A stretch of 29,729 nucleotides of DNA, taken from the IMG/VR virus record IMGVR_UViG_3300040801_003694, positions 1-29,729 of that record; one strand, 5' to 3'. The notes beneath the pieces were generated by a model. It was not told the DNA's origin and made no database searches. It was given only the letters and a program-made list of their open reading frames with translations. The first letter of the stretch is position 1, and each line of letters starts with the position of its first letter. The translations under genes and the position numbers were made by a program. Source of the DNA: a virus. Positions 9,514-28,036 of the stretch are shown piece after piece.

Positions 9514-9531
9514 GCCCCCCGTAAGGGGGGC
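9514..9531 (+). terminator. GC hairpin with GTAA loop after the capsid gene
   Basis: GCCCCCC pairs with GGGGGGC over seven base pairs around a GTAA (GNRA-type) tetraloop, 21 bases after the capsid stop. It is followed by GACCCTTTC, which is not a proper T run. It may be a partial terminator or an RNA-stabilising 3' hairpin that sets the capsid message apart from its neighbours. No separate promoter was found downstream, so full termination is unlikely. Confidence 0.6.
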
Positions 9532-9580
9532 GACCCTTTCATAGGCGCAGGCGCACAGGATGTGTGGCCCCCTTAGTACT

Positions 9581-9597
9581 CACCCCAGGACGGGGTG
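9581..9597 (+). other. Second hairpin between capsid and next gene
   Basis: CACCCC (9581-9586) and GGGGTG (9592-9597) form a six-base-pair stem with an AGGAC loop. It ends nine bases before the ribosome site of the next gene (AAAGGAG at 9606-9612), so it could affect translation start there or stabilise the RNA. No T run follows. Confidence 0.5.
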
Positions 9598-9621
9598 CAA
9601 CGGATAAAGGAGCATCGACTC

Positions 9622-10197: not shown

Positions 10198-10209
10198 GGA
10201 TGAATCGCT

Positions 10210-10890
10210 ATGCCTGTTGACGGCTCACCAACGATTACCCACCCGCATTACACCAACAAAGGACTTGACGAAGGTCTCTTCGACCAGCTGATGGTAGCCA
10301 TTGACTACCACCTGCAAAAAGAGTGGAAGTCAGGGCGTATTTCGGGAGACACCTACCACAAGGTCTACCTGGGTTCGTTGGAGGCTGCCTTGGGGAATTC
10401 GACCCAGTATCTGCTGGGTCTTCTCCTCATCGACGAGAAGCGCGAACAACTGCTGAAGCAGATCGAGCTGACCGAAGAAGAGGCACGTCAAAAGGCATAC
10501 GAGACAGACTTTATTCTCCCGCAGCAGCTCCTCAAGCTCATTGAGGAGACTGCTCTGCTGGCGAAGCAGCAAGAGCTGATCGACAAGCAGATGGAGAAGA
10601 TCGACAAGGAAATCGAATTCCTTGACGCGAAGATCCAATCTGAGCTGGCGAATACAGATGAAACCATTGCTGATCCAGACTCTCTGATTGGGCGCCAGAT
10701 CGACCTGCTCAGAATCCAGGGACTCGGATTTGCTGGAGATCTTGAGGCCAAGGCTGCGAAGCTCTTCGCCGACTACGACTCCGTCCTCCAGTCTGTTCAG
10801 GAAATTCCAGAGATGGTTGCTTTGCAGACAGATGCGCAATCAGCGATCGATGCCATCGAGGCGACAGTAGTACAAATGAAGACCGGCTAA
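10210..10890 (+). CDS. Coiled-coil virion protein
   Basis: This 226-residue protein starts 12 bases after the previous stop with AAGGA upstream. The first half is mixed: 'HYTNKGLDEGLFDQLMVAIDYHLQKEW...GRISGDTYHKVYLGSLEAALGNSTQYLLG' recurs at the start of podophage internal or head proteins. Residues from about 75 to 145 are a strong heptad-like coiled coil rich in Glu, Lys, Gln and Leu (KREQLLKQIELTEEEARQ; KLIEETALLAKQQELIDKQ). The C-terminal quarter is again helical. It corresponds by position to N4 gene 54, a virion protein. Its specific role is not established; a part of the internal core or head-tail neck would fit. Confidence 0.75.
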   Translation: MPVDGSPTITHPHYTNKGLDEGLFDQLMVAIDYHLQKEWKSGRISGDTYHKVYLGSLEAALGNSTQYLLGLLLIDEKREQLLKQIELTEEEARQKAYETDFILPQQLLKLIEETALLAKQQELIDKQMEKIDKEIEFLDAKIQSELANTDETIADPDSLIGRQIDLLRIQGLGFAGDLEAKAAKLFADYDSVLQSVQEIPEMVALQTDAQSAIDAIEATVVQMKTG

Positions 10891-10900
10891 GGAGGCTCTT

Positions 10901-13312
10901 ATGGGCATCTTTAGCTCGAGCTACAAATACTACGCATTCGCCGGCAGCTCTGGACTCTTTGACGAAGATAACCGTCCTCATACCGTTCTTCAGTTGATGT
11001 TGAACGGTATTCTGGGTAACACAGCCTCGCCTCCAGAGGCAATTATTACCGGACTGAACACAAACCTCTATGCTCGAGCAAAGAGCATGTGGAAGTATGC
11101 GTCAAAAGAAGATGGTTACGTCTTCGGCTTTCCTACAGCGTCTACAACACAGTACGTCATCTCCTGGGCTGACCTTGAACCCTACGTAGAGGCAGATGTA
11201 GGCGAGGGCGTAAACATCAACTCTTACTACCTCGGAAATCCAAACGACTTTCAGTACTTCTGGGTTGAGCAAGGCATCCAAGATAACTACAACAGCTGGT
11301 TTACCGGTGATCCTTCACCACTGACTCGCTGGTCTCACTTGGCCTCGGATGTACCAATTCCGGTACAGAACCCAGATACGCTGGAATACTACACTGCCAC
11401 AGGCTACACAACCCAAGTGTCCGGTGACAATGTCACCGTAACGTGGAACTACACAGACAAAGACGGAAATCCACAGACCTGGGTTGCCCCTACCTATTCA
11501 ATGGGTTGGCCAGGGGACACCGGTGAGGTCAAGTACCTCATGGTGCGTTACCGTCTGACCGCGGATACAGATTACTTTGACTACTGGTTCTACGAGATTG
11601 GCTCTGGCGAGAATCCAGCTCTCGAGTCGGAGATTGAATCCCTGGAAATCGAGGCACAGTATCTCCCCATCTCAATCCTGATGCATGACCGCGTCTGGTT
11701 TGATGAAGCGACGGACTTTCCCGAGTGGGAAGAGACACTCGACCGGTTGATGCGTGACATTGCCCTGGATCCGTACGAGATCAAAGAACAATACCTCGAC
11801 AGTCTGGAGAACCCGGATCCGGAAACTCCTCCGGACTCAACCCCTGACATCGAGGATGTGTGGGACTTCTTCATCAAATTTGCCGTTCCGTTGCGCACAC
11901 GCGACAGAGGCGGCCGGGAATATCTATTCCATTTTTATGACCGTTTGAGAAGCCAGACCTGGACAACATTTGACGAATACAACAGTTGGGTGGCAGCTCC
12001 CTTTGGTGATCAGCCTCATTCAACGCTGGCAATTGAAGAAGGTAGCCAGTACACGGGTTACATTGCCCGTTACGCCTGGTCCTATATCGAGAAACGAGAG
12101 TTTGAGGGCGACTTCACACCGCCCGGGTGGCCGGAGCCTTTGAAGAAGCGCCGGCTATGGTCCGCTACCTACCAACTGGGTGATGCCGATTACAACTACG
12201 GTCTCGACATGATCCACGGCCCGGGTAACTACAACGTGGCGGCGAGCCAACCAAAAGGACAGGAACATACCTATACCATCGTGGTTCGGCGTAACGAAGA
12301 TGAGACCCATACAGCGATCTTGATGATGGGTCCGTCAATGGAGTACCAGATCAATACGTCCGAGACACCGGTGGGTGTCGGTGATAGCGGGTATGTGGAT
12401 TATCGCTACCGCTTTGTGGATGTTGAGCTGTTTCCCGAGGATCCAGAGGAAGAGTCTGAGTTTCGCTGGCCAGTAAATATCGCTGCCCTAAAAGAAGTCA
12501 GCGCCATGCAGCGCGAAAACAGCCTATCAGATGGACTATGCGCTACGATCTTCCTGGTCGAGCGGGTCAAAGTGAAATGGTACCAGAAGGGCTTTTTCAA
12601 ATGGCTCATTATTATTATCGTGGTGATCATCGTCATCCTGCTTTGGCAGTATGAGCTGCTTCCAACCATTGCAGCCGCGGCAACAGCCGCTACAGGTGCC
12701 ACTGCACTAGGACTCTGGGCGCTATACGTTGTGCTGACCTTTGCCATTGGCTTCCTGGTCAGCTTTGCAGGTGGATTGATTGGTGGACGACTGGGACAGC
12801 TGTTCGTCATCGTGGCCATGTTCATGGCGATGGGCGGAAGTTTCTCAAACATCAATCCTTTTAGTAAGGTCAGCTCAGCCTGGACCAACCTGACCACTAC
12901 TCCGTCGTTTGGTTCCGCTATTCAGTTCATTCAAGCGACGTATCCTTTCCTCTCAACAGGTCAGAAGATCTATGTAGAGTACGAATTGCATAATCTTCGC
13001 GATGAGATGGAAGATTTCGCTATGACGGCGAGAGAGAAGTACGAGCAGCTACAAGATGCGTGGGATGCAATGGGAGACAGTCCTTCATGGATCGATCCAC
13101 TCGAGATTGCCCGCACATTCTCCATTTCAACTCTGTATGAAGATCCATCAAGCTTCTATTACAGAACTTTGCATGCAAATCCCGGTACTTTGGGGTATGA
13201 TTTGATACAGAATTTTACGAACATGGCTGTAATGCTGCCTAAGTCCCCGGGAAGCCCGGGAATTGTTGATTCTATGATGGAAACATTCGCTGAACAGAGA
13301 GGACAAGTCTAA
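10901..13312 (+). CDS. Large virion protein with a central membrane-segment cluster
   Basis: The 803-residue product follows a TAAGGAGG site. The N-terminus (MGIFSSSYKYYAFAG...) and a large, soluble, Tyr/Trp-rich region with several beta strands fill residues 1 to about 560. Then come three hydrophobic segments: about 568-587 (Ile/Val-rich after FFKW), 603-627 (ALGLWALYVVLTF...) and 633-648. The segment between them is Ala/Gly-rich. The C-terminal 150 residues are helical and acidic. In N4-like phages large internal virion proteins in this position (gene 53-like slot) are ejected with the polymerase; membrane segments in one of them would suit a pore or channel in the host inner membrane. That role is inferred. 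The stop overlaps the next start (TAATG). Confidence 0.78.
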   Translation: MGIFSSSYKYYAFAGSSGLFDEDNRPHTVLQLMLNGILGNTASPPEAIITGLNTNLYARAKSMWKYASKEDGYVFGFPTASTTQYVISWADLEPYVEADVGEGVNINSYYLGNPNDFQYFWVEQGIQDNYNSWFTGDPSPLTRWSHLASDVPIPVQNPDTLEYYTATGYTTQVSGDNVTVTWNYTDKDGNPQTWVAPTYSMGWPGDTGEVKYLMVRYRLTADTDYFDYWFYEIGSGENPALESEIESLEIEAQYLPISILMHDRVWFDEATDFPEWEETLDRLMRDIALDPYEIKEQYLDSLENPDPETPPDSTPDIEDVWDFFIKFAVPLRTRDRGGREYLFHFYDRLRSQTWTTFDEYNSWVAAPFGDQPHSTLAIEEGSQYTGYIARYAWSYIEKREFEGDFTPPGWPEPLKKRRLWSATYQLGDADYNYGLDMIHGPGNYNVAASQPKGQEHTYTIVVRRNEDETHTAILMMGPSMEYQINTSETPVGVGDSGYVDYRYRFVDVELFPEDPEEESEFRWPVNIAALKEVSAMQRENSLSDGLCATIFLVERVKVKWYQKGFFKWLIIIIVVIIVILLWQYELLPTIAAAATAATGATALGLWALYVVLTFAIGFLVSFAGGLIGGRLGQLFVIVAMFMAMGGSFSNINPFSKVSSAWTNLTTTPSFGSAIQFIQATYPFLSTGQKIYVEYELHNLRDEMEDFAMTAREKYEQLQDAWDAMGDSPSWIDPLEIARTFSISTLYEDPSSFYYRTLHANPGTLGYDLIQNFTNMAVMLPKSPGSPGIVDSMMETFAEQRGQV

Positions 13313-13782
13313 TGGGTGCATTTGCAGATGCCCTAAACCAGCAGTTCGACCCCCTATACGGATTGAACCCGCAACAAAGCGCCATCGGTGACGGTATCAC
13401 TACCGGTCTCACGCAGATGCAGAACCCACTGACCATGAGTTGGAATCAGCTGGGTATTGGCGGGAAATTGGGAGTCGTAAGCCAAGGACTGGGCGCATTC
13501 AGTAACCTTGCCAGCCTTTATGCTGGATTCAAGGCGCTTCAACTACAGAAAGATCAGTTCAGGTTCCAGAAAGATGCTTGGAACAAGAACTACAACAACC
13601 AGCTCAAGGACTATGAGAACACTCTCAAAGACCGTTGGACTGCTCGCAACGCATGGGCGCAGAACAACAACCGCTCGTACGATAGCATGAGCAGCTGGGT
13701 TGGTTCCCGCATGCCGAATGGGCAGGCTCCGACGGGGAACTACTCACAAGCAGCGCCAAATAGTGGCGGAGGCTCAGGATAA
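13312..13782 (+). CDS. Small internal virion protein (N4 gene 52 position)
   Basis: This 156-residue protein overlaps both neighbours by the TAATG pattern. It has an N-terminal Gln/Asn-rich region, a Gly/Leu/Ala-rich amphipathic stretch at about 45-75 (GIGGKLGVVSQGLGAFSNLASLYAGF), and then a basic, aromatic helix (KALQLQKDQFRFQKDAWNKNYNNQL) followed by a Gly/Ser/Pro tail. The 'GLGAFSNLASLYAGFKALQLQKDQF.FQKD' motif is familiar from small internal proteins of podophage ejection cores and from fibre-attached proteins. The size agrees with the small virion protein N4 gp52 as I recall it. It may bind membrane through the amphipathic stretch. Confidence 0.7.
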   Translation: MGAFADALNQQFDPLYGLNPQQSAIGDGITTGLTQMQNPLTMSWNQLGIGGKLGVVSQGLGAFSNLASLYAGFKALQLQKDQFRFQKDAWNKNYNNQLKDYENTLKDRWTARNAWAQNNNRSYDSMSSWVGSRMPNGQAPTGNYSQAAPNSGGGSG

Positions 13783-15296
13783 TGGCAAAGCCAATCACAT
13801 GGCGTAATATCGCCGGCCCTTCTTTCCAGAACTCTGCTCTCGGGCAGGGTGTTGATGCGTTCCGTTCGGCAGGTGCAGGCTTCAGCGACCTCACCGACAG
13901 CCTCTTCAAGACCCAGGACCGTATCGATGAGGGATTCACCAACGAGGCCATCCGCCAAACTCTGCAAAGTGGGCAGGTGGACCCGAACCTAAATCCTCGG
14001 GCTGATTCTGCGCAGGTGTACGAAGCTCTCCTTGGAAAGAAAAAGTTCGAGAGCGATCTCGAGACGGCTGAGTCGCAGCGTGCCAACATCACGTCACAGA
14101 TTGGACTACGAGAAGAGCAGACAAAGGATGCTCGCTATCGCAACTCAGAAGAGTGGCGTGCTCTGGAGAAGCGCTCAACCAACGCACAGATTACCGCGGA
14201 CGAAGCTCAGGCCAGCTACAACAGCTGGAAGCTGAAATTCGACCAACGCCAGGACGAAGAAGCCCAACTCATCAAGACTCAGGCTCGTGACCTTGAGTCT
14301 CAGCTGGTCAGTGGACGTCAAGGCATCTACCAACAATATCTCCAAGCCAACCCTGGAGATGAGACCGGTGCTCGTCTCGCAGCACAGCAATGGAGCGAAA
14401 GCCCAGAGGCTCGTCAGGCTCTCGAGGCCTACGCTACTCAGCAAGGCTTCCTGCCGGAGGCGTGGGATCTCAGCACGTGGGGCGAACGTGATGCTCTTCG
14501 TGATCAAAGCCTGGCCAACCTGGCAGAGAAGCGAGCTGAGCGCGACGAAGTCCGTGCCGAGGCTGAGAACAATCGCTTCGTGGCAGAGCTGAACGGCGAT
14601 CTGGGTCTCACAATCGTAGATGAGCAGGGCAATGCCCGCGCTGGTACAGAACAAGAGCTGAAATCGCAGAAGATGAGCAGCTACACTGAGGCCATCTCCA
14701 AGATTCAGAACCACGGGATCAACATTTCTCAGCTGAACGGTATCAAAGGTACTTCACCAGAAGCAGCCGCAATCAACCTGGGTCGTACGAAGTTCCCGAA
14801 CTCTTCTCTGCTGGCTGGCGCCATTGAGCCATTCATCGCAGATGATGGTGAGTTCGACTACAAGAACTTCAATAAGATGCTGGCAGATGCTGGTCCTCGC
14901 ATTTCCATGAACCGAGTTAATGAGATTCGTCAGTCTCGTGGACTGCCTCCCATTCAAGGTACAGAAGGCGAAGAGGGCGGTGGTCCTGGTGCCCAGGAAG
15001 TTCTTGGTGAGCCAATAGTGAAGGGTGTGACAACCAAGCCAGCCACAGCAGGGACACTGAATAGTTACCGTACACGTCTTGCGGAAGCTGAACAATTCAT
15101 GGAGAATCTCCCTGCGGATGCAGATCCTCGAGGCGTAGATGCTCTCCGTCGAGCATTGGTTCGAGCGCAGAGCGAAGGTAAGGTAACTCAGGGCGAGCTG
15201 CCGGGTCTTGAGAAGAATCTGCAGATCTTTGAAAACATCATGCGTCGTTTCACCAACGCGGAAGAACAGCGTCGGGCTTTTGACGCAGCACAATAA
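13782..15296 (+). CDS. Internal virion protein, probably ejection-related
   Basis: The 504-residue protein begins MAKPITWRNIAGPSFQNSA, an opening common to internal core proteins of podophages that lie just before the largest ejected protein. The rest is mostly long helices rich in Glu, Gln, Arg and Ala, with a Glu-rich coiled coil at about 85-180, a middle 'IKGTSPEAAAINLGRTKFPNSS' segment and a Gly/Glu-rich linker near 395-410 (GTEGEEGGGPGAQEV). No enzyme motif is visible. It is immediately upstream of the giant polymerase gene, spaced eight bases, and takes the N4 gene 51 slot. Role: likely part of the virion protein set accompanying the polymerase during DNA delivery (inference). Confidence 0.75.
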   Translation: MAKPITWRNIAGPSFQNSALGQGVDAFRSAGAGFSDLTDSLFKTQDRIDEGFTNEAIRQTLQSGQVDPNLNPRADSAQVYEALLGKKKFESDLETAESQRANITSQIGLREEQTKDARYRNSEEWRALEKRSTNAQITADEAQASYNSWKLKFDQRQDEEAQLIKTQARDLESQLVSGRQGIYQQYLQANPGDETGARLAAQQWSESPEARQALEAYATQQGFLPEAWDLSTWGERDALRDQSLANLAEKRAERDEVRAEAENNRFVAELNGDLGLTIVDEQGNARAGTEQELKSQKMSSYTEAISKIQNHGINISQLNGIKGTSPEAAAINLGRTKFPNSSLLAGAIEPFIADDGEFDYKNFNKMLADAGPRISMNRVNEIRQSRGLPPIQGTEGEEGGGPGAQEVLGEPIVKGVTTKPATAGTLNSYRTRLAEAEQFMENLPADADPRGVDALRRALVRAQSEGKVTQGELPGLEKNLQIFENIMRRFTNAEEQRRAFDAAQ

Positions 15297-15304: not shown

Positions 15305-18300
15305 ATGGACGTCTCAGGTTTTGACAGAATCCTTTCGGAGAGTCTGACCGCAACTCGGCGTAACGAGGAAAAGCTCGCCGAGGCCTCTCAGCGGATGCAG
15401 AACAAGTTCAATCCACTCAACTACGAGAACGTAGAGCATGTGGACGGGGACACCTTTCGCCTAAAAGATCGCCCTGACTACAGCTTCCGTATCCAGAATG
15501 ATCCAAGCTTTGGGGTGGATACCTACGAGAGCGATCGCCGGGTGTACGAGCAGCAGCCTGATCGTCTGGCTGCCCACAAGCGTAACTACGCGAAGCTGAC
15601 CGGTCGTCCTGAATGGTCCATCACCATCAACGAGCTGGTTGACCGCGGCAAAGTGCAGGCTGAACAGGTCCGCCAGCGTATGTCTCAGCTGGGACAGGAA
15701 GGAAGACTGGGCTACAAGTCCAATGGCTACGATGAGTACGGGCGTGAGCTGATCCAGGTTTACGATACTGAAACTGGAGAAAACGTCTACGGCCAACACA
15801 GTGGCCGTGAACAAAACGCCAGCTACGACTCGAAGTACAACTCTGGGCAAGTCCTCAAGGATATTTTCTCTGGAGAGTATGGTAAGTACACGGCATTCGA
15901 CAATACCCGTGGCGTCAAAGATACTGCAAAGGATCTGGGCGTTAATCTAGCGGCCGGCACAGGTCGTATGCTCACAGGATTGGCTCAGGGTGCACTGACC
16001 CTGATTGGCGGAAATGGGCCGGTTGTAGACCGCTTTTTCAATGCTGTAAACGAAGGTCTGGACAACTTCCAGGATTCAGCTCTGTCCAACGAGGCTCTGG
16101 CCCGCAATGCCCGCATTGACCGAAATCGTGCTCGTAACGTAGAAGCCTACGGCGTTCGCAAACAAGAATACCTCCGTCAGGGTTACACCGAAGGTGAAGC
16201 CAGCTTCTTTGCCGGAGCAGAAGAATTCCAAGACACCGTGGCAGATCTGCTGACGGAACCTGGTTACATTATCGACAAGACGGTCGAGTCTCTCCCTTAC
16301 ATGATCGGCGTGGCCGCTGCGGGCCGTGCAGCCGTAACCCAGGCAACCAAGCTTCTGTCCAAGAATGTTCTGAAGAGTGTAACAAAGGCAGGTGGAACGA
16401 AGGAACAAGCCCGTGCTTCTGTCAAACTAGTACTCGAATCTGAGGCTGGTAAAAAGATCCTCAGCCGAGTGGCCAGCACCACCGGTGTGGCCGCAGTCGG
16501 TGTAACTGAAGCCCTGTCTACCTCCGCTGATGTCTACAACAGCGTATTGAACATGTCGGAAGCCGAAGCTTCCAAGTCCGAACAGTACCGTGCACTGCGC
16601 CAGGAAGGCATGGGTCACGTTGAAGCTACCCGTGCTCTTGCCGAAGCTGCGTTCGAGTCTACGTTCCTACCAGCGATGCTGATTGCTGGAGCGGCCTCAT
16701 TCATTACCGGTGCTGGTGGGTTCGAAGCCCGCCTGTTCACCAATCAAGCAGGTAAGTCTTTCGTGGGCAAAGGCATTGCCGGTGAGAGCGCTGTCAAGAT
16801 TGGTTCAGGCCTGACAGACAAGATCGTCGGCGGAAGCGTACGTAATATCGGACGATTCGCCCGCTTTGCTGGTCCGGCCGGCACTTCCGAAGCGACGGAA
16901 GAAGCCATCCAGTCCGGCTCACAGGAATTCCTCACACAGTTGGCTCAATTTGAGGCAGGTGTTGGCGAGGCTCCAGGTCCGGGTATTGGTGCAGCAGCAG
17001 GTGAAGGCGCAGCTATCGGCTTTGCTTCCGGTGCTGGGTTCCAATCTGTCTCTGGCGGGATCAAAAAGCTGGCTGACTCAGATCTGCGTAAGTCCGGTAT
17101 CGATGCGCTGGAAAGAGCCAAGAATGTTCGTAACCTGACGGACAATACTGGTGCCGTTGGTGGATCTAAGGTACGTGCGCAACGCAATGCTCGTAACGTA
17201 TCTCCCGAACAAGCAGCCTCTACTCTGGAAACAGTGGCGAAAGAGTGGGAGGCCTCCGATGAGAAGAACATCAAGGACATTGAGGATCTGCTCAAGCGCA
17301 AGTCTGAGATCGACCAACTGGTCGAAAAGGCGGAACAGTCCGAAGCGGGCGTAAGCCCCGAAGTACAAAAGCTCCAGGACGATGTCCAAGGGCTGTACGT
17401 CACTGCCCTGGATCGGGCAGCTGCCGCGGTATTGAAGCGGAATAAGAAGCCGGCTGATCGTAGCAAGAAAGAGAAGAGAATCCTGGCGGAAGCCATCGCT
17501 GAGAATGTGCCTTCTGTTCGCGAGGACGAGCAGTCATCGCGTATTTACTCGCATACTCGTTCTGCGATCGATGCCATTGAGAAGCAGACAGAAGCAACCA
17601 TCAAGGGAAGCGCTGAAGCCGCGGCTGCACAGGTAGACCGTGCTCTCGATAACGTACCCGAACGTGAAACTGAGCGCGTAGCTCGTGAGAAGATGGGGCG
17701 CCTGGATACTGATTTCGGCCCCGGGCTGATGGGCCACTTTGATCGTATTAACGAAGCCATCGTAAACAACGACAAAGCTGCCGTTGAGAAGCGCTTCGAG
17801 AAGTTCAACAACTTCATGAACAGCCAGCGCCACAAAGTACAGCAGCTGGCCAATTTCCTGGAAATGTCTGAGGAAGACCAGGCGAACCACAAGAAGTTCA
17901 GATACAAAGCCGGTGTCACTGAGAAGTACTACAACCTGCTCCAGGATGAGCTGGAAACGATGCAACAGGTCCGTAATGACCTGGCAGAGCTGTACAACCA
18001 GTGGAACCCCCAGCCACAGCGCACTGCGAACATTCCTGCCGCACCGAAGGTGCCGAAGCGCAGAAACTATGGTCGTGGTCCGGATCAGCAATCAGCCGAA
18101 GCGGAAACCTCCAATCAGCCGGAGAAAAAGTCTACTCGACCTCCGGCAGAAACCAAGCGCAGAAAGCGCAACTATGGGAGCGCCAAGGATGAAAATTCTA
18201 CGGAACAAGGATCAGCCGAAGACAACGTCGGACAGTCATCATCCGACACTGGAACAGGAACCGAAACAGAGACTGAGCAAGAAGCAAGTCCTGAGAGCGA

Positions 18301-21300
18301 GCCTGTCGATCAAGGAACTGAGGGAACTCCGGCGAGTGAGACGGCAGAAAGCCAAAGCAGTGAGAGCGGTACAACTGAACCGACCGCCTCCGATGTAACT
18401 CGTGAGCAGCTCGAAAACATGCCAAGCAGGGCCGTGTACAACATGGCTCTGGAACTCGGCATGCAGATCCAGGGTGTGGCAAATGTTGGTCAGATGATCG
18501 ACTTCATCCTGGAAAACCAGGGAACTGAAGAAACGACCGAACAAGTCGCCGAACAAGAGACCGAACAAGCTACAGACCTGGCGCTGGAAGACCTCAAAGT
18601 TCCAGAGCTGCAAGCTTTGGCTCGTGCCGAAGGTATCCCCCTGTCTGAGAACGGTCGCAAGCTGCGCAAGCAGGAACTCATCGACCGTCTCCGAAACGAA
18701 ACGATGGATGAAGCTTCTCAACAGGAGGTAGAACAAAGTGCCAGAGAGCAAGAGCAAGCAGAAACCGCGGCGGAATCCAACCGAGAGGGTGGGACCACCG
18801 AAGAATCTGTCACAGAGAACCGAAGAGAAGCAATCGAATCGGCGATCTACGACGAAAACGACTTCGTAGCCGGCCTGACTCGCATTTGGGCATTCTCTGA
18901 CAATGAACTGAACGCAACCCTGGCTCAACGTCTGCTGGAAGTCCTCGAGGGCCGTAAGATCAAGATCACGGTGCTGAATGACAAGGACTTTGTTGCACGG
19001 GTGAAGAAGGATGGCGGCAAGAACTACGAAGATGATCCGCCAACTGCCATGTTCCTGGGTAAAACTCAGGAAGTTCTGCTGCGCAAAAAGACCCGCAACT
19101 CGAATGCAATGGAAGAGGCCTTCCTGCATGAACTGACTCACGCTGCTATCAACGGCTGGATGATGCGTCCTGCCAAGAACAAGCGGGATCGTACGCTGCG
19201 TGACCATGCCCTGAAGACTCGAGGCATGATCATCAATCGTCTGGAGCAGCGGGTTAAGGATAATCCGGAAGACACAGATGCAGCTGACGTTCTGTCCCGT
19301 CTGAAAGAGAACAAGGAAGAGTGGATTGCCTATGCATGGTCCAATGAGAAGACTCAACGTATCCTAAGTGAGATTGACCTCGGATCGAAGTCTGCCTGGA
19401 CCCAGATCCTGGACATGATCAAGGGCATCCTCAAACTGGATCGTCGTTCCGCTCTCACCCACACCCTGCGCATCTCTAACGAGATCTTCAAGAATGAAGA
19501 GGGACAGCCCGGACGGACTTCTCGTGATGGTCGTACCCACACACCGAGCAAGGCTCAAGATCAGACAGCCCGCCGAGTGCGTACGCTGCTGAACCGTGTG
19601 GACACCCTGACAACCCAGCTGGAAGCAGCTGAGCCTGGTTCAGGGGCAGAGATCAACCTGGCTCGCCGACTGGAAGAAGCCAACGCTGAACTCGAGAAGC
19701 TCGGAACTGAAGAGCAGTCTGTAGCCTCTGAAGCTGAAACCGCTGTTGACGAAGCCGAAGCTGAAGTCGGAGCACAAGCGGAGGCGCAGCCGGAGCGCAG
19801 TGCAGAGACGGAAGCTGAGGCGCCCGTCGTAGCAACAACGAACAATGACCTGTGGTGGGATCGTATCAACGAAGTTGAACGACTCCAGTCACTGCTGCGT
19901 AATGGATCCATCACGGAAGAACAGGTTCGTTTCCCTGGTTCTATGGAAGAAGACCAGCGCCGATTTGAAGAACTGATGGCGAACGGTAACACTGCTGCCA
20001 GCGCACTGGCGCAGATGGAAACCGATATCAATGAGCGTCTGGACCGCAGCCAACCGCGGACAGAGATCCCTACAGACTACCTAAACCTCGAAGAAGCTGT
20101 ACAGAGTGCTGTACAACTCACCAAGACCGGTGAAACAGACCGCGTACAGAATATCCTCGAGGGTGCTTCTGACTTTACTTCAGAGTCCAACTGGACACGT
20201 ATCAAGAAATGGATCCTCGGTTCCTACGATCGTGCCAACATCAAGGACATCATCACGGAAGCCTTCAGAGGCCGCCTGATTCCAACCAGCGTGGAAGCTG
20301 GTTTTGACACAGCCCGTGATAAGGCCCGCAGCCTGATCACAGCTGTACCGAACCTGCATGATATTCTCAACAACCCAGTGGGTCGTCGTAAGCTCTATGA
20401 TGCTCTCGAGCTGACACCGGCTGAAGAGGCTGCGTTTGATGCCTTCGCCGAATTCCGGAACGAGATGAAAGATGCGGTTGACTCCGCATTCCAGGAACTG
20501 TTCCGTGACAAGATCGACTACCGTGACGGTAACCGTATTGCGCAGAACCCGGCCTACCTGCTCACGGACGACACAGACACACTCCTGCCGGGTGTGATCA
20601 CGGCTATCGCCTACGAGAGCATGAACTGGGTCACAGGGGACGGCTCACGTCTGTACAACGACGATGAGACCATTGCTCGCATTCTGGGTCTGCCTGACGG
20701 TGCACAACCCAATGACAAGCAGATCCGTCTGCGTACGGCCGGCACACTCCGCCGTAACGTGAATGACCGGATCGGCAGCGCGGTGTACCGCCACCTGAAC
20801 ATCAGAGCCAAGAACAGCCCTGACATTGCTCCGAACCTCGACGAGCGTATGGAAGCAGCGCTGGGTACGATTGCCATCCGCGCACTGCAGATCACTCGTC
20901 CAGCCGGACAGCGTGGTCCAGGCCGCGTACAGGCCATCACATTCGATGGAGCTGAGTTCCGTGCGATGAAGGGCGAAGAAGCCACAGAGCACGAAGATTA
21001 CAGCAAGCCAATCAGCTTCATCCGGGCTACGGCCGCAAGCAATCGCGGATCCCGTCGCTTCCTGCTGAGCAATCCAAACGGATACCTCCAGGAAGACATC
21101 CGCCCGGGTCGTACTGCCATGAACCGCGTGTTTGGCGTGTCCAACGTCATCAAAGAGCCGCTGACCTCGCCTCCAACGGAAGAGAACATTCCGAAGAAGG
21201 CACTGCGCTCCGTAACACGTCTGTCGAAGAAGATGCGCGAAGCCATTCGATTTCAGCAGTCTCGCGAATGGCAAGCCAATACGCGCCTGATCGACAAAGT

Positions 21301-24300
21301 TCGTCAGTTTATTCCTGAGCAGTACCTCAAGTACGCTCACGAAATGGAAGATGACCTGTCATCTATCCATGACCTGGAGCTGGACAACGTCGAGGGCCGT
21401 AACAGAACACTGATGACCGCGCTGGAGAATGCTCTCAACTGGGGAGCACGTGAAGGCGATGGATCTCTGTGGTTCACATACTCAATGACTCGTACCGGTC
21501 GTACGATGATCGACTCGACGTACATCAATCCACAGCAGAGCAAGATCCACCGCTTCCTGTTTGGTCAAAAAGCTTGGCAAGAAACCATTGAACCTGGCGA
21601 CATTGAGTTGCTGGAGAATTTCAAGATTGCCGTAGCCCAAGGACTGGGCATCAAGGTTGATAAGATGACGCGGGAAGCGATCCTCGCGGCTGTTGAAGCA
21701 CGGATGCAGGACGAAGACGTCCAGGCAGCCCTGGAGGAACTGGCCACGGATGGCCCGATCAACCTTGAAGTGGATGGGAATCCAACGGCACTGGGTAGTC
21801 TCCTCAAGGAAGAGGGGACACACACCCTGGCTGCGCTCATGGCGTGGCAGGACTATCTGGATGCAGATGGCGGGGCCTTCACCACAAACCTCCCAATCGA
21901 GGTCGATGGTGTAACCAACGGCTTTGCGGCTGGACTGCTGCAAACTCCGCCTATTGATCCTCAGGCGATGGAACGTCTGAAGGATCTGCTGCGTGCGGTG
22001 GGTGTTATTTTCACGGAAGATGAAGAGAAGAGCTTCGCAGAATGGCTGAGAGACCCGAGCAACCGGGACAACTATCAGTCCGCTGCAAGAAAGACGGCCG
22101 AGGCAATCAGTCGAATGATGCCTGGTGGTGACCTCTTCCAGTCATTGGATCGTCGGGAAGAAGCAGACCGATTTATGATGGTGATCGGCGAAGAAATGAA
22201 CACGTTGCTGGCATCTGGATTCAGCTTGGATGAACAAGCTCTGAAGGATCCGAAGACCGGTCGTGACTTTGCCAAGAACCCGCTGATGATCGTGGCTTAT
22301 GGTGCCAGCTCTCGTACAGTCGCCAACAACTTGGTTGAGAACATCTGGCTAGAGGCTCACCGCCAAATGGCCGCGGTAAACCGTATGCGCATCAAGGAAG
22401 GTGAAACTGAAGAGCAGTTCAAGGAAAGACAAGCCCAGGCATTGCTGGATGTACTCAACAAGTACATGGATGTGAATAACACCGGCAAGGAAGCCTACTA
22501 TTTCTCACGTGGGTGGAAGTTCAAGGCAGATGAGAAGTTCACCCGCGATGATCTGGACGTCATGATCGAGCGCAAGCTGGTCAAGGACAAGTGGGGCGAT
22601 CCGGTAACTGACATTCAGGGACTGGCTCGTTCATTCCAGTTCCAGGATGACAAGCGCAGCAAGGAATACCTGAAGACCAACTTCACCCGTGCCATGAAGG
22701 CCGTGTATGGCCGCGGCATCGAGGCAGCTCTGAGCGAGATGCTGTCCGGTATCCGGGAAATCCGCAACACGTACACCCAAGCCATCACAATGATGAACGC
22801 GATCTTTGTCATCGAGTTCCAGCGTCGGGTGGAAACAGAAGAGGCAGCGACGGGCCGGGTAGTAGGCCGTCACCGCCGTACACAAATCGTAGAGCGTATG
22901 CACGCAGAAGGCCTGGTGCCAAGCGTAGCCTCCGCCTACAGTGATCCGAACAACCTGTCTGAGAACCTCGAGCTGACAGCGTGGCAGCACAACCTGATCA
23001 ACGATCAGAATGTGAAGATCCTTCACGATGACTACGAGGGCGTAACCCGTATCCATTACGGAGATGGTACGGTTGAAGTGCTGGGTGACACCAAGTCCAC
23101 AACCAACAACCTGACCGCTCGCGACCCAAGCACTGATGTGGGTGTGGCGGGTATCGTTGGAAACATTCACTCTCTGGACGGAACCAACTCTGCCGACATC
23201 TTCGGAGCCTTCGACGTACTCAACATGTTCGATGCCTGGGTCATGAAGCTGAGTGATCTGGGAGCCGTTCCCAATCAGGGTAACAACCGGTTCTTCAACC
23301 AGCACCGTGACTATGACATGGGTCAGGAGCTGGTGCGTTCGATGGATCGTATGCTTCTGCTGGTTACAGAGGGTGACGGACGACTGAGCGCTGCTCAACG
23401 CCGTGCAGCCGGCAACCTGCTGATCAGCGAGATGAAGAAGCACGGTCAATGGTCGGAGGACATGGATGAGCAGTACACGATCGATATGGGTGCAGATGGA
23501 ACACCCATCTACGATACGCAAGCTGTCATGAATGACCTGGCCGCCGACATGCGGAACACGGTTTCGCAGGTTACGGAAGCCAAGGCCGAGATCATAAAGA
23601 TCATCGGCAGAATGGATCAGTTCGCCAACGACGGAACGGCATATGAAGTGCCAGAGAACCGTCGCAACGAGCCACTCCCCACATTGGAGGAAACTGAGAA
23701 ACATGCCAGACAAACCGCTTCAGCCGAGAAAATCACAGCCAAGGCCGCCACGTTGGCGAGAAACCTGGATAACGGTAACTTCAATGAAGCGTTCTTTAAC
23801 TGGCTCCAGGAAGAAACAGTTCGGCCAAGTGAAGCTCTTCGAGTTCTGAATGAGCTGATCCAAGACAACGCCATTGGCAATGTCGCCGAGCAGATGAACC
23901 AGTTGGTAGCAGTTCTCCACCAGTATGCGAACAACTCCAATCCTATCGTGGTGGGACGTACCGCTGGTCCGGATGCCAAAGGTGAATACAGCAACGGTCA
24001 GATCACCATTGACCCAACCAAGTTCGGCGAAGAGGACAATCCGGTTGAAACCCTGCTGCACGAGATTCTGCACGCAGCCACAGCCGAAGCTCTGGACAGA
24101 CTGGAACAAGACAACCCAGACTTGCTAATGAGCATTCACGCTCGAGGACAAGCGCTGTACAACACGCTGAAGTCTCGCAAGAACCTGGCACGTCCGCAGC
24201 AAGAGTTCCTCATTGCCTGGAAGGCACAGAAGGATCCGGTTATCCAGACTGGAGAATACCTGGCGCATGTACAAACCGGTCTCCTCGAAAATGACATGGA

Positions 24301-27300
24301 CCAGCTGTACCTGGCGTTCGGCACTCCTCGTAGCCAGTGGATCTCAACCTTTGCTGCGATGGGTTCAATCCTGACTCAGGGCAACACCAAGACAATCAGA
24401 CTGCGATCATCACAGGACAAGGTAAACAATGACCTGTTTGACGCAGCCAACGAAGGTAAGAAGCTCGAGCACCAGAAGCTCCTGGATGCGTTCGAGGACA
24501 TGCGTGCCATTGATGAAGAGCATGACGGCCAGTCAGCCCGTGAATACGCAGAGTTCCTGCGACCGGTAATGAATGGCATTCTCCTGCCTGGTTTGGCAGG
24601 TCTCATCAACGACGTCATTCTGAAGACTGGCGTCGAGACTGACGGAACGAAGAACCTCGGTGAAGTAGAACGTGGCAGCGATGCTGACATCCTGAAAGTT
24701 CAGGTAGCTGGCGCCAAGCTGACTAATCCCGGCGACATGACAGCACAGGAAGTGCTGGCTCACGAGCTGTACCACGCCATCACTGGGTTCGCTCTGGAAA
24801 CTGACACCAAGGTCAGAGCGGAGCTGCGCAAAATTTACGAGTACGCCAAGGATCGGCTAACTTGGGAAGACTTCATGCCTCCGGCAGATGAGATTGCTGG
24901 AGACCTGTCTGCGGTGGAGGCAGCCGCACAAGAGCGCTATGACTACGTGTTTGGTCGAGTGCCTTTTGACAAAGACGGGAACCCTGAAGTCGATCAGCTG
25001 CAGGAATTTGCTGCGCTGGGCATGTCCAATAAGCCATTCGCTCTGGCACTGTCCCGAATCGACGCACCGAGCGCTGCCGAACCCATCTGGGACGGTAACA
25101 TTCTCTCGTCTCTGGTTAATCTGATTAACAAGGGACTCGAGATGCTCCGGAGCTACACCCTGGGTACTCGTAAAGCGCAGTCTTCCGCTGAAGCTCTGCA
25201 CAGGCTGAGCCAGAAGGTAGTGACCATCAACAAGAACGCGAAGATCCGCGGTAAGCAGTTGAAGGGTCACGATGCAATGTGGCGCAACAAGGTAGACAAC
25301 CGCGCAGGTGAGTGGATCTCCAATAAACTGGAAGCAGCACAACGTAGACTCCGACTCAGCGAAGAAGAGAAGAAGACTAACGGGTCTGTAGCCAAGTGGA
25401 TCCGCATGGGAACCCACGCAGCTCTGGCTTCCCGTACTGAAGCACAACAGAAGGCGAACAGAGAGTTCATGCGCCACCTGGGTGTGAACAAGCAGTCCGC
25501 CCTCTCTGAGATCATCTCCGAGGTCATGCCTTACAACAAGGATGACCGTGGCGGAGCTGACGGTAAGATGGGCTTCCTGGATCTGCTGAGACACTCGAAG
25601 GTGTTGATCGACATGGCTCGCCAACGAGCGATTGAGCACACAAGCTCTGTGCTGATGTCTGCATTCGATCCGAAGCGCAGGCTGAACCGTGCGCAGCGAC
25701 TGGCGATGACCAATGTCCTTCTGCGTACCGACCTACATGCTCTGACGCAGCACAATGATGCTCGCAAGCTGAGCGAGATCCAGGAAATGATCCGTAACGA
25801 TCAACTGATCGATGCTGAGCTGGCTCGCCTGTACCGTGCACTGGTCCAAGAGCTGGAAGCTCAAGGCGCCAGCGATGTGCTGACCATGTACGAACGTCAG
25901 ATGGCATCCCTGGCCAACTACATGACCAAGGGAATCATGCTGGAAGACAACGGCATGAAGAACGTGCACAACATCGTGCGCCAGTACAATCTGACCAACT
26001 ACAAAGATCGCGTGTATATCGCTGATCCCAAGAAGCTGGATCCAATCCTGGATCAGATGGTGACTCTCCAAGCTCTGAAGCGCACGGAAGTTCGAGATCG
26101 AGAGCTGGCACTGCAAGTGATCGACCACGAAATGCAGCGCACTGATGACAATGGATTCCTGTACACGATGGGCATGGCCGGCAACTTCAAGTACGCCGCT
26201 CTGACTGACCTGTTCCAGAATAATCCAGTGCTGGTGCGCAAAGGCTACGTCTACGACATCACAGACGGTGACCGTAACATCGAAGTGATCTTCGACACGC
26301 CAGCTGAACGTGAGCGCATGAGAGACTTGGGCATGGTTCGTATCGGGCGTGTACAGGAAGACCGTCACGACCGGTCAGCTCCATATCCGAGAGCCATGTA
26401 CAAAGGCTTCCGTGGTGCTAGCACCTGGCAGAAAGCAACAGTTTCTCTGACCTCGACCCAGCGCCAAGGTACGTCGCTGTTCGAAGTGTCTGGCTTTGAT
26501 CCGAAGCGCACAGGTTGGAACCTGGGCCGCATGATTGCCTACAAGGATGTTGAGGCGAAGAAGCAGTTCAAGCCTGGTCAGTTGAAGACTGATGCACCTA
26601 TCGCCATCCCAGTGCTGGACGAAGCGGGTCGTATCGTAGACTACACCTACGAAATGAGCCTGAAGGACCGTGCACACCACCTGAAGAACACTCGTAACAA
26701 CGACTACTTCGATCTGGTGCTGCCTCGTCAGTTTGGTTCGATCCCTGACCGTATCCACACCAAGAAGATCAACAGCCAAGCTGCTGACTTGATCTTCAAG
26801 GAGTACATGGCGTTCAAGGATTCACCGGAGCACAAGTTCGCCAAAATTGGCAAGTACTCGAACAAGCGCGGTAAAGACATGTGGAACGTCATCCCTGATG
26901 ACATGAAGCGTGAGCTGGCCGAGAAGTTCAAAGGTACCCAATTCGTGGACAAGAAGGGCCGCCTGATTGCTCTGCCTCTGAGAGATGAAGCAGTGAACCT
27001 GGTGATGGGCTTCCGCAAGCTGTCGATCCTGGATCTCCCAGGGCCGAAGGGCAAGAAGCTGATCCGTGGTCAGAAGGCTACATTCGCAGCCAAGACTGCC
27101 GAGAAGGTCTGGCAGGAAATCATGCAGCTGGTTCGCATCAAGATGGCGATCATCAACCCAGAAGTTGTGATCGGCAACCTCAGCTCGAACTACGGCATCC
27201 TGCTGGCGAAGGGTATTCCGGAAAGATACATCCGAGACAAGACCTCAGAAGCGATCCGTGGTATGCGTCAGTACCAGCGTGATGTGCGCAAGGTGGACGA

Positions 27301-28036
27301 ACTCCAGCGACTGATCGGTATTCGCCTGAACACCATTCCAAGCACTGCGGTAACTACCGACCGCAAGCTGCAGAACATGGTAAATGAAAGAGAAAGATTG
27401 AAAGCCGAACTCCGGGTGAACCCGGTTGGCAAGTTGGTAAATGCGGGACTCTTTACGAGTATCGTTGAGGAAGTATCTTCGGACGAAGATACCTATCGTG
27501 AGTGGATCATTGGTAGCGCTCTGGACAAGTTCACTTCAACTCTGCCGAGCAAGGGTGTGCAACTGGCGAAGGAAGCCTACATGGTTCCTGGTTCCAACGC
27601 CTTCAACATGGCCATTGCAGCCACCCAGTACGGTGACTTCATTGGACGTTACATCCAGTTCCGTTATGAGACGGAGCACAAGGGTGTGGAAGAGCGCGAT
27701 GCTATCAACAACGCCCTGGCGACATTCATCTACTACGACATGCCGCAGAACCGTTGGCTCCAGTACATGAATGACAATGGCTTGCTGATGTTCACCAAGT
27801 TCTTCCTGAGAATCCAGCCAGTCATTGCCCAGCTGTTCCAGGAGAACCCAGTGAAAGCGACGGGTGTATTTGCGGTACAGCAGGCTCTGATGAATCCGTT
27901 CGACGAAAACATCGGCAAGTACGCGCTGTTCAATGGATTGGATAACCGCTACGAGCCGTTCCCACTGGCTCACATGGACAAGCTGGATCCGTTCAACCCG
28001 TCACTGTTCCAGTGGTTGAACCCGCTAGGCCTCTAA
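15305..28036 (+). CDS. Giant virion RNA polymerase, N4 gp50-like, with added nuclease-like and metallopeptidase-like domains
   Basis: The 4243-residue protein has an AAGGA site before ATG 15305. Visible order: (1) residues 40-165, staphylococcal-nuclease-like (VDGDT with D49; R62; GVDTYE with D72, T73, E75; DEYGR with R147); (2) residues 200-600, Gly/Ala-rich amphipathic segments at about 213-236, 330-346, 453-475 and 563-590, suited to membrane insertion; (3) helical region, then an acidic linker at 905-1030 with two KR-NYG motifs; (4) two SAP/Rho_N-like modules at about 1033-1073 and 1093-1132; (5) zincin 1, H1275ELTH and E1339; (6) polymerase core, about 1640-2750, with TRTGR (R2066), LPIEVDG (D2201), R2320...K2324...Y2332G, IHSLDG (H2622) and MFDAW (D2643); (7) zincin 2, H2919EILH and E2984; (8) zincin 3, H3153ELYH and E3234; (9) about 1000 C-terminal residues, helical, no motif recognised, ending FQWLNPLGL. 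In N4 the protein is packaged, injected and transcribes early genes. It is longer than N4 gp50 (3500 residues). Confidence 0.93.
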   Translation: MDVSGFDRILSESLTATRRNEEKLAEASQRMQNKFNPLNYENVEHVDGDTFRLKDRPDYSFRIQNDPSFGVDTYESDRRVYEQQPDRLAAHKRNYAKLTGRPEWSITINELVDRGKVQAEQVRQRMSQLGQEGRLGYKSNGYDEYGRELIQVYDTETGENVYGQHSGREQNASYDSKYNSGQVLKDIFSGEYGKYTAFDNTRGVKDTAKDLGVNLAAGTGRMLTGLAQGALTLIGGNGPVVDRFFNAVNEGLDNFQDSALSNEALARNARIDRNRARNVEAYGVRKQEYLRQGYTEGEASFFAGAEEFQDTVADLLTEPGYIIDKTVESLPYMIGVAAAGRAAVTQATKLLSKNVLKSVTKAGGTKEQARASVKLVLESEAGKKILSRVASTTGVAAVGVTEALSTSADVYNSVLNMSEAEASKSEQYRALRQEGMGHVEATRALAEAAFESTFLPAMLIAGAASFITGAGGFEARLFTNQAGKSFVGKGIAGESAVKIGSGLTDKIVGGSVRNIGRFARFAGPAGTSEATEEAIQSGSQEFLTQLAQFEAGVGEAPGPGIGAAAGEGAAIGFASGAGFQSVSGGIKKLADSDLRKSGIDALERAKNVRNLTDNTGAVGGSKVRAQRNARNVSPEQAASTLETVAKEWEASDEKNIKDIEDLLKRKSEIDQLVEKAEQSEAGVSPEVQKLQDDVQGLYVTALDRAAAAVLKRNKKPADRSKKEKRILAEAIAENVPSVREDEQSSRIYSHTRSAIDAIEKQTEATIKGSAEAAAAQVDRALDNVPERETERVAREKMGRLDTDFGPGLMGHFDRINEAIVNNDKAAVEKRFEKFNNFMNSQRHKVQQLANFLEMSEEDQANHKKFRYKAGVTEKYYNLLQDELETMQQVRNDLAELYNQWNPQPQRTANIPAAPKVPKRRNYGRGPDQQSAEAETSNQPEKKSTRPPAETKRRKRNYGSAKDENSTEQGSAEDNVGQSSSDTGTGTETETEQEASPESEPVDQGTEGTPASETAESQSSESGTTEPTASDVTREQLENMPSRAVYNMALELGMQIQGVANVGQMIDFILENQGTEETTEQVAEQETEQATDLALEDLKVPELQALARAEGIPLSENGRKLRKQELIDRLRNETMDEASQQEVEQSAREQEQAETAAESNREGGTTEESVTENRREAIESAIYDENDFVAGLTRIWAFSDNELNATLAQRLLEVLEGRKIKITVLNDKDFVARVKKDGGKNYEDDPPTAMFLGKTQEVLLRKKTRNSNAMEEAFLHELTHAAINGWMMRPAKNKRDRTLRDHALKTRGMIINRLEQRVKDNPEDTDAADVLSRLKENKEEWIAYAWSNEKTQRILSEIDLGSKSAWTQILDMIKGILKLDRRSALTHTLRISNEIFKNEEGQPGRTSRDGRTHTPSKAQDQTARRVRTLLNRVDTLTTQLEAAEPGSGAEINLARRLEEANAELEKLGTEEQSVASEAETAVDEAEAEVGAQAEAQPERSAETEAEAPVVATTNNDLWWDRINEVERLQSLLRNGSITEEQVRFPGSMEEDQRRFEELMANGNTAASALAQMETDINERLDRSQPRTEIPTDYLNLEEAVQSAVQLTKTGETDRVQNILEGASDFTSESNWTRIKKWILGSYDRANIKDIITEAFRGRLIPTSVEAGFDTARDKARSLITAVPNLHDILNNPVGRRKLYDALELTPAEEAAFDAFAEFRNEMKDAVDSAFQELFRDKIDYRDGNRIAQNPAYLLTDDTDTLLPGVITAIAYESMNWVTGDGSRLYNDDETIARILGLPDGAQPNDKQIRLRTAGTLRRNVNDRIGSAVYRHLNIRAKNSPDIAPNLDERMEAALGTIAIRALQITRPAGQRGPGRVQAITFDGAEFRAMKGEEATEHEDYSKPISFIRATAASNRGSRRFLLSNPNGYLQEDIRPGRTAMNRVFGVSNVIKEPLTSPPTEENIPKKALRSVTRLSKKMREAIRFQQSREWQANTRLIDKVRQFIPEQYLKYAHEMEDDLSSIHDLELDNVEGRNRTLMTALENALNWGAREGDGSLWFTYSMTRTGRTMIDSTYINPQQSKIHRFLFGQKAWQETIEPGDIELLENFKIAVAQGLGIKVDKMTREAILAAVEARMQDEDVQAALEELATDGPINLEVDGNPTALGSLLKEEGTHTLAALMAWQDYLDADGGAFTTNLPIEVDGVTNGFAAGLLQTPPIDPQAMERLKDLLRAVGVIFTEDEEKSFAEWLRDPSNRDNYQSAARKTAEAISRMMPGGDLFQSLDRREEADRFMMVIGEEMNTLLASGFSLDEQALKDPKTGRDFAKNPLMIVAYGASSRTVANNLVENIWLEAHRQMAAVNRMRIKEGETEEQFKERQAQALLDVLNKYMDVNNTGKEAYYFSRGWKFKADEKFTRDDLDVMIERKLVKDKWGDPVTDIQGLARSFQFQDDKRSKEYLKTNFTRAMKAVYGRGIEAALSEMLSGIREIRNTYTQAITMMNAIFVIEFQRRVETEEAATGRVVGRHRRTQIVERMHAEGLVPSVASAYSDPNNLSENLELTAWQHNLINDQNVKILHDDYEGVTRIHYGDGTVEVLGDTKSTTNNLTARDPSTDVGVAGIVGNIHSLDGTNSADIFGAFDVLNMFDAWVMKLSDLGAVPNQGNNRFFNQHRDYDMGQELVRSMDRMLLLVTEGDGRLSAAQRRAAGNLLISEMKKHGQWSEDMDEQYTIDMGADGTPIYDTQAVMNDLAADMRNTVSQVTEAKAEIIKIIGRMDQFANDGTAYEVPENRRNEPLPTLEETEKHARQTASAEKITAKAATLARNLDNGNFNEAFFNWLQEETVRPSEALRVLNELIQDNAIGNVAEQMNQLVAVLHQYANNSNPIVVGRTAGPDAKGEYSNGQITIDPTKFGEEDNPVETLLHEILHAATAEALDRLEQDNPDLLMSIHARGQALYNTLKSRKNLARPQQEFLIAWKAQKDPVIQTGEYLAHVQTGLLENDMDQLYLAFGTPRSQWISTFAAMGSILTQGNTKTIRLRSSQDKVNNDLFDAANEGKKLEHQKLLDAFEDMRAIDEEHDGQSAREYAEFLRPVMNGILLPGLAGLINDVILKTGVETDGTKNLGEVERGSDADILKVQVAGAKLTNPGDMTAQEVLAHELYHAITGFALETDTKVRAELRKIYEYAKDRLTWEDFMPPADEIAGDLSAVEAAAQERYDYVFGRVPFDKDGNPEVDQLQEFAALGMSNKPFALALSRIDAPSAAEPIWDGNILSSLVNLINKGLEMLRSYTLGTRKAQSSAEALHRLSQKVVTINKNAKIRGKQLKGHDAMWRNKVDNRAGEWISNKLEAAQRRLRLSEEEKKTNGSVAKWIRMGTHAALASRTEAQQKANREFMRHLGVNKQSALSEIISEVMPYNKDDRGGADGKMGFLDLLRHSKVLIDMARQRAIEHTSSVLMSAFDPKRRLNRAQRLAMTNVLLRTDLHALTQHNDARKLSEIQEMIRNDQLIDAELARLYRALVQELEAQGASDVLTMYERQMASLANYMTKGIMLEDNGMKNVHNIVRQYNLTNYKDRVYIADPKKLDPILDQMVTLQALKRTEVRDRELALQVIDHEMQRTDDNGFLYTMGMAGNFKYAALTDLFQNNPVLVRKGYVYDITDGDRNIEVIFDTPAERERMRDLGMVRIGRVQEDRHDRSAPYPRAMYKGFRGASTWQKATVSLTSTQRQGTSLFEVSGFDPKRTGWNLGRMIAYKDVEAKKQFKPGQLKTDAPIAIPVLDEAGRIVDYTYEMSLKDRAHHLKNTRNNDYFDLVLPRQFGSIPDRIHTKKINSQAADLIFKEYMAFKDSPEHKFAKIGKYSNKRGKDMWNVIPDDMKRELAEKFKGTQFVDKKGRLIALPLRDEAVNLVMGFRKLSILDLPGPKGKKLIRGQKATFAAKTAEKVWQEIMQLVRIKMAIINPEVVIGNLSSNYGILLAKGIPERYIRDKTSEAIRGMRQYQRDVRKVDELQRLIGIRLNTIPSTAVTTDRKLQNMVNERERLKAELRVNPVGKLVNAGLFTSIVEEVSSDEDTYREWIIGSALDKFTSTLPSKGVQLAKEAYMVPGSNAFNMAIAATQYGDFIGRYIQFRYETEHKGVEERDAINNALATFIYYDMPQNRWLQYMNDNGLLMFTKFFLRIQPVIAQLFQENPVKATGVFAVQQALMNPFDENIGKYALFNGLDNRYEPFPLAHMDKLDPFNPSLFQWLNPLGL

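Follow-up and report, generated by a model that had tools for sequence, protein, structure and literature searches.

A predicted staphylococcal nuclease-like domain at the N-terminus of an N4-type virion RNA polymerase

What stands at the head of the giant polymerase encoded by the IMG/VR virus fragment IMGVR_UViG_3300040801_003694? A preliminary description of these 29,729 bases (analysed whole, and called the window here) had read a staphylococcal nuclease (SNase)-like domain into the start of the virion RNA polymerase (vRNAP), and had listed residues that it took for the SNase catalytic set. Conservation among relatives, profile comparison and a predicted fold bear on this reading, and we put the probability that the vRNAP N-terminus is SNase-like in fold and active site at about 0.93.

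The virion RNA polymerase of the window

Late genes in the window match phage families in PHROGs, among them portal, tape measure, major head protein and virion proteins. Downstream of these lie ORFs of 803, 156 and 504 aa followed by a single 4243-aa ORF, an order and a set of sizes that mirror gp53-gp52-gp51-gp50 of N4 in a synteny comparison.

13312..13782, + strand: 156-aa ORF at the position of gp52 in N4 (matches phrog_2646, a family of unknown function, at E 1.4e-19)
13782..15296, + strand: 504-aa ORF directly upstream of the vRNAP, in the place of N4 gp51 (synteny with N4 gp53-52-51-50)
15305..28036, + strand: vRNAP of the N4 gp50 type, 4243 aa, open throughout (phrog_2206)
22169..22468, + strand: candidate N4 RNAP helical domain, vRNAP residues 2289–2388 (PF21894, E 1.7e-4, 22 bits, under the 27-bit cut-off)

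The 4243-aa ORF matches the virion RNA polymerase family phrog_2206 over residues 1420–4203 (E 4e-297), and its C-terminal 1243 aa have tblastn matches in 420 phage records. Named relatives are all <60% identical over the C-terminus, the first listed at 26%. Homology over the polymerase and C-terminal regions identifies this as a vRNAP of the N4 type, and we infer from gene order and from N4 that it would be encapsidated and ejected. The 504-aa ORF in the gp51 position found no relative in phages by tblastn; a weak HNH-like match (phrog_865, E 0.0082) covers its residues 196–230.

Three HExxH motifs occur along the vRNAP, at residues 1275, 2919 and 3153 (19127–19141, 24059–24073 and 24761–24775), and a weak SprT-like match (PF10263, E 2.3e-4, below the cut-off) covers residues 2900–2926. 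In N4, an HExxH is reported in the C1 domain (PMC12633501). A SAP/Rho_N-like DNA-binding motif was also seen in a low-complexity stretch at residues 1094–1131 (18584–18697; Rho_N E 4.7e-4 and SAP E 0.0048, both below Pfam cut-offs).

Active-site residues and their conservation

The region singled out for the domain, 15422–15799, corresponds to vRNAP residues 40–165. It contains VDGDTF at residues 46–51, arginine at residue 62, GVDTYES at 70–76 and GYDEYGRELI at 141–150, which places D49, R62, D72, T73, E75 and R147 exactly where the preliminary description had them. In the numbering of staphylococcal nuclease we take D47, D49, R62, D72, T73, E75 and R147 to be the counterparts of D19, D21, R35, D40, T41, E43 and R87.

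15443..15451, + strand: D47 and D49 (SNase D19 and D21), in VDGDT; D47 in 8/8 covering rows, D49 in 9/9
15488..15490, + strand: R62 (SNase R35), invariant in 9/9 rows
15518..15529, + strand: D72, T73 and E75 (SNase D40, T41 and E43); D72 and E75 in 9/9 rows, T73 in 5/9
15743..15745, + strand: R147 (SNase R87), in DEYGR, invariant in 9/9 rows

The spacing departs from that of SNase much as had been described. Between R62 and D72 the window has a distance of +10, against +5 for R35 to D40, in keeping with an insertion of about five residues, and E75 to R147 spans 72 residues against 44 in SNase, a longer loop. In one sequence such a pattern is suggestive, not provable.

An alignment of vRNAP C-termini (A1), used as scan query, yielded 80 IMG/VR loci. 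Eight further IMG/VR vRNAPs carry the N-terminal region (L019, L020, L021, L022, L056, L066, L127 and L149), at 19–34% identity to the window. L019, L020 and L021 are the three best matches of the polymerase C-terminus and have N-termini alignable with that of the window, and L022, L056 and L066 were chosen partly by eye or motif. The remaining two, L127 and L149, were found out of sample, only by a profile of the other seven: run against all six-frame ORFs of the loci then collected, this profile returned, beyond its own members, just L127 (E 1.1e-10) and L149 (E 2e-9), with nothing after them below E 0.25. All relatives came from alignment-based viral contig scans. Viral contig scans with the N-terminus alone or with the C-terminal 643 aa alone found no relative, nor did tblastn of the window N-terminus against 50,697 phage records (allowing E up to 10 gave two partial matches, E 5) or tblastn of the L022, L020 and L127 N-termini against phages (one match for L127, at 15% coverage and E 0.9).

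In a MAFFT alignment of the nine N-termini, of which that of L056 begins within the domain, the sole invariant positions among columns with at most one gap are D47, D49, R62, D72, E75 and R147. That nine divergent N-termini share only these residues as invariant argues that the pattern is more than chance. A six-row subset that leaves aside L022, L056 and L066 (window, L019, L020, L021, L127 and L149) has D47, D49, T50, R62, D72, E75 and R147 as invariant. The R62–D72 spacing is +5 in L020, L022 and L127, as in SNase, and +10 or +11 in five other relatives. Five of the six residues proposed as the catalytic set (D49, R62, D72, E75 and R147) are therefore upheld as a conserved group. The sixth, T73, is not invariant, its column holding T in 5/9 rows, A in 3/9 and S in 1/9. 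Staphylococcal nuclease uses the backbone oxygen of T41, so that a varying T73 is no objection to the SNase reading.

Profile comparison and predicted fold

Searched against Pfam, PHROGs, NCBIfam and PDB sequences, the window N-terminus returned no SNase. The SNase model PF00565 had no match in the window record at its curated 21-bit cut-off (controls matched in 8/14 genomes), and none in six relatives scanned with Pfam. Lacking a match at that cut-off, the domain is filed here as SNase-like and not as a PF00565 member. A profile of the first seven rows likewise found no SNase among PDB sequences, the best match being a MarR protein (E 0.81).

By profile–profile comparison, hhalign aligned the vRNAP N-terminal profile with 22 bacterial SNases at 96.2% probability and a score of 58.8, which was reached by 0/100 column shuffles (best 16.8); the reversed family scored 24.4, and the best of 15 stretches from the vRNAP C-terminus scored 13.2. 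Against just five SNases from vRNAP-bearing records the probability was 46–57%. Masking the six invariant columns lowered the result to a score of 27.8 (27%), so the profile evidence comes largely from the active-site residues. In the reciprocal direction, an SNase profile run over 31,769 ORFs ranked canonical SNases 1–8, L127 ninth and the window vRNAP N-terminus tenth; the E-values of these two (0.75 and 5.8) are not significant alone, and the result is one of rank only.

15386..15880, + strand: modelled region, vRNAP residues 28–192, predicted SNase-like domain with short flanks (AlphaFold2 on nine rows; Foldseek, VIA-align)
15431..15766, + strand: predicted core, vRNAP residues 43–154, three strands, helices and two strands in SNase order (DSSP of the model)

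The AlphaFold2 model of residues 28–192 reached pLDDT 83.0 and pTM 0.74 from the nine rows, a small alignment on which the other tests also rest. DSSP places strands at model residues 16–20, 23–26, 29–36, 108–115 and 121–127 and helices at 51–56, 58–72 and 81–104 (adding 27 gives vRNAP numbering). The predicted architecture is that of the SNase superfamily, an OB-type barrel of five strands in which a helix lies between strands 3 and 4, and the model shows an extra helical insert between these same strands. A helix also follows strand 5 (150–161), in blocks of pLDDT about 66–68. Of the rows, L022 is the only one that looks canonical by eye in this C-terminal part.

Foldseek against the PDB returned 136 matches at E ≤ 10. 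Staphylococcal nuclease occupies every rank from 1 to 27, with a best E of 0.012 and a best probability of 0.90; no match reached E ≤ 0.001, in the PDB or in the viral library BFVD. The top match in BFVD is named a nuclease (probability 0.92), and the second is a homologue of micrococcal nuclease (0.98). With VIA-align, SNase accounts for all 50 matches listed, the best having rmsd 3.9 over 115 of 135 residues and Z 8.1, a value at the edge of the tool's informative range. The preliminary description had named two grounds for giving up the idea, an absence of SNase from profile or structure searches, or a predicted fold that lacks the OB-barrel and scatters the listed residues. Instead, the structure search returns staphylococcal nuclease first, the profile–profile comparison agrees, and the listed residues form the conserved core. 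The connection to SNase (PF00565) that it had anticipated came through structure and profile–profile matches and not through a direct Pfam match to PF00565. On this model, the first ~190 residues are predicted to be a divergent SNase-like domain, with an OB-type barrel and a complete set of catalytic side chains.

Distribution among virion RNA polymerases

The fused domain occurs in 7/186 distinct vRNAP ORFs collected (a set without the window) and in 5/106 full-length ones, defined by a stop on the 5' side and a length of 2900 aa or more (L019, L020, L022, L066 and L127); several scans were seeded with domain-bearing relatives, so these counts are not population frequencies. L149 is counted apart from the 7/186. 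Its vRNAP is encoded as two overlapping ORFs (L149:2584-7185 and 7163-13216) with the SNase-like domain on the first, which may reflect an error, a frameshift or a true split.

A six-frame profile search, which in the same run recovers all known members, found no fused domain in 17 sampled named schitoviruses, and on the N4 stretch the best profile match had E 100. The remark that N4 gp50 has no such domain thus holds, and the comparison with other Schitoviridae vRNAP N-termini that had been suggested finds the domain in eight IMG/VR relatives and in none of N4 and the 17 named phages. A further search of N4 and the named phages (0/18) was run without a positive control and shows little.

Canonical PF00565 SNases lie upstream of the vRNAP in seven other loci, directly so in six. 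In L065 and L095 the ORF immediately before the vRNAP carries the SNase as its C-terminal part, in L086, L154, L220 and L286 the SNase is a separate ORF of 256–279 aa in that position, and in L082 a 467-aa ORF sits between the two. PF00565 was found in 6/100 chosen vRNAP records from viral loci (1/50 and 5/50) and in 1/3 bacterial assemblies with a vRNAP, where the SNase, L350, lies in L286; it matched in 0/17 named phages and, as for the window record, in none of the records of the eight fused relatives. L286 (JANJVG010000124.1, 126,998 bases), with its vRNAP and upstream SNase, is a contig of a Burkholderiaceae MAG; it exceeds in length the complete named phages compared, which measure 70–79 kb.

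In a 110-row vRNAP tree, built by a quick method and midpoint rooted, all nine fused rows fall in one 35-row side and the seven upstream-SNase rows in another side of 64 rows, and many rows with neither arrangement lie between them. An origin of the fused domain by simple fusion of the neighbouring SNase gene was rejected, the two arrangements being on different sides of the tree. For the same reason the fused and upstream SNases look like separate recruitments to the same gene boundary and not like stages of one fusion. Within the 35-row side the fused rows form two subgroups parted by rows without the domain, so that one old gain with losses and several gains would both fit.

Activity and alternative readings

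We consider it quite likely that the SNase-like domain is an active nuclease or close to one, leaving its target aside, and enzymatic activity of the predicted domain seems likely in its own right. The sole evidence for activity is conservation, the catalytic positions being the only invariant ones. On the same ground a "disarmed DNA-binding part", one of the roles offered in the preliminary description, appears less favoured than an active nuclease.

A specific form of such a part would be an SNase fold without catalysis that serves as a nucleic-acid-binding tether, holding, for example, the leading end of the genome to the polymerase. Tudor-SN repeats are SNase folds that bind nucleic acid without catalysis. 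High divergence from PF00565, a position on a DNA-handling protein and a helical insert absent from SNase would all suit a tether, but one would not expect simple binding to preserve six catalytic positions as the only invariant columns of nine rows when the relatives are 19–34% identical to the window. We regard the tether as unlikely.

An active nuclease could also work on the phage's own nucleic acid, in genome-end processing at entry or on early transcripts. SNases are nonspecific nucleases, which speaks against this use, and the lack of the domain in N4 and 17 sampled named schitoviruses implies that it would not be a general step of the life cycle. Even though the domain is joined to the polymerase, which is the first to handle the genome as it enters (PMC4496689), we find action on the phage's own nucleic acid improbable.

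The fold itself could be read otherwise. In a winged-helix DNA-binding domain, residues ~85–155 (helices and two strands around DEYGR) would be the wing and the SNase motif an accident. AlphaFold2 on the window sequence alone gave helices and a hairpin at ~85–155, and the fold search with that model listed many winged-helix proteins and no SNase (VIA-align best Z 4.1 overall); weak sequence matches to Rex repressors (E 0.0015), RNase M5 (E 0.0032) and the MarR protein (E 0.81) point the same way. However, the single-sequence model is poor (pLDDT 57.8) and is superseded by the nine-row model (pLDDT 83), which matches SNase over residues 7–165 at Z 7.7–8.1 with no winged-helix protein among the 50 matches listed. 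A winged helix would also leave the invariant D47, D49, R62, D72 and E75 unexplained, and we judge it very improbable. An accidental resemblance, of the kind that a loose motif may show somewhere in a long protein, could be argued from one sequence with loose spacing and no Pfam match, but it is scarcely credible and is refuted in practice by conservation, which extends to the out-of-sample relatives, and by concurring fold (Foldseek, VIA-align) and profile searches.

Proposed role at cell entry

Reports on N4 describe a vRNAP that exits the capsid before the DNA, via the tail, and stays at the inner membrane (PMC12633501, PMC4496689). There, a complex of gp51 with the N-terminal domain of the vRNAP has been proposed as the inner-membrane part of the DNA ejectosome (PMC12633501). 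By analogy, the SNase-like domain of the window would be packaged as part of the vRNAP, ejected with the polymerase ahead of the genome, and so delivered into the cell to act near the entry site. It probably works, at the cell envelope or within it, as a nonspecific nuclease that depends on metal, and would attack nucleic acid of the host or of competitors in early infection. By comparison with other nucleases of phages, DNA of the host or of rivals is the likeliest target, an assignment that we make tentatively.

15971..16027, + strand: hydrophobic stretch just past the SNase-like domain, vRNAP residues 223–241 (Kyte–Doolittle mean 1.04 over 19 residues)

This stretch lies at about the position of the membrane helices predicted at 224–278 in N4, and by analogy with that report it may have a membrane role (PMC12633501).

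A nuclease packed beside the phage genome would need restraint. Staphylococcal nuclease needs calcium at high concentration, and such a need could keep the SNase-like domain quiet in the cytoplasm and active in the envelope. For N4, a molten-globule state in the capsid has been suggested (PMC12633501). A broader picture, which we offer as speculation and consider rather doubtful, is that in schitoviruses a nuclease has repeatedly been placed where the gp51-position protein and the vRNAP N-terminus adjoin. A metal-gated SNase at this site, kept inactive or unfolded within the capsid and switched on in the calcium-rich envelope, would cut nucleic acid where the phage enters, be it of the host, a plasmid or a rival phage, while the incoming genome is shielded in the channel.

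If active, the domain would be a nuclease that arrives on one polypeptide with an ejected RNA polymerase, and these schitoviruses would have in it a weapon or counter-defence ready for use before phage gene expression. It would also identify the N-terminus of the vRNAP, together with the gp51/gp50 boundary, as a site where payload enzymes can be exchanged. This raises the questions of what protects the phage's own genome from a packaged nuclease and at which face of the membrane the vRNAP N-terminus operates.

Relation to known systems

The domain is like SNase homologues (PF00565) in its predicted order of barrel and helix and in the residues aligned with catalytic D21, R35, D40, E43, R87 and D19. 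It differs from them in lying below detection by the PF00565 model, in a longer helical insert before the DxYGR strand, in a different tail after strand 5 in most rows and in its fusion to a polymerase of >3000 aa. The whole protein is like N4 gp50 and other schitovirus vRNAPs in its phrog_2206 region, gene order, HExxH motifs and size class. It differs in its N-terminal domain, which is seen neither in N4 gp50 nor in the 17 named phages sampled; the N-terminal domain of the N4 vRNAP is reported as two helical subdomains with membrane helices (PMC12633501). The SNases of the seven loci described above likewise sit in the ejection cassette where the gp51 and gp50 genes meet, or close by, but they are canonical PF00565 members, are not fused to the vRNAP and belong to a different part of the vRNAP tree.

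The window vRNAP also resembles the polyvalent proteins of phages, giant ejected multidomain proteins surveyed in PMC5512222, where N4-like RNAPs fused to metallopeptidase, lysozyme, ART and PBECR domains are reported. With an SNase-like domain, an RNAP and a zincin-type HExxH on one chain, it is polyvalent in this sense, its ejection being presumed from N4 and gene order. The main text of the survey does not mention SNase, staphylococcal nuclease, thermonuclease or micrococcal, and an active SNase-like domain would add a DNase-type domain to a protein class for which that 2017 text reported only ParB-like DNases (PMC5512222). A literature search, with most subscription papers outside it, found no SNase or thermonuclease in a schitovirus vRNAP, an absence that is not proof. 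Phage R4C has a thermonuclease-like match, and its paper keeps R4C apart from N4-like phages. The SNase-like domain on a vRNAP is a new domain combination in a known protein class.

Other vRNAP starts among the collected loci were recorded in passing. The vRNAP of Vibrio phage 1.152.O has an N-terminal phage lysozyme domain (PF00959, L012:2436-3200, E 1.8e-4, exactly at the 22.3-bit cut-off), and that of its relative pYD6-A (L005) has a start that is transglycosylase-like by eye, with no Pfam match. The N-terminus of the vRNAP thus seems to be a slot that takes enzymes of different kinds. Four vRNAP ORFs are short, at ~2290–2460 aa (L024, L029, L033 and L034), as if an N-terminal domain were missing or encoded apart, and those of L024, L029 and L034 have nearly identical starts.
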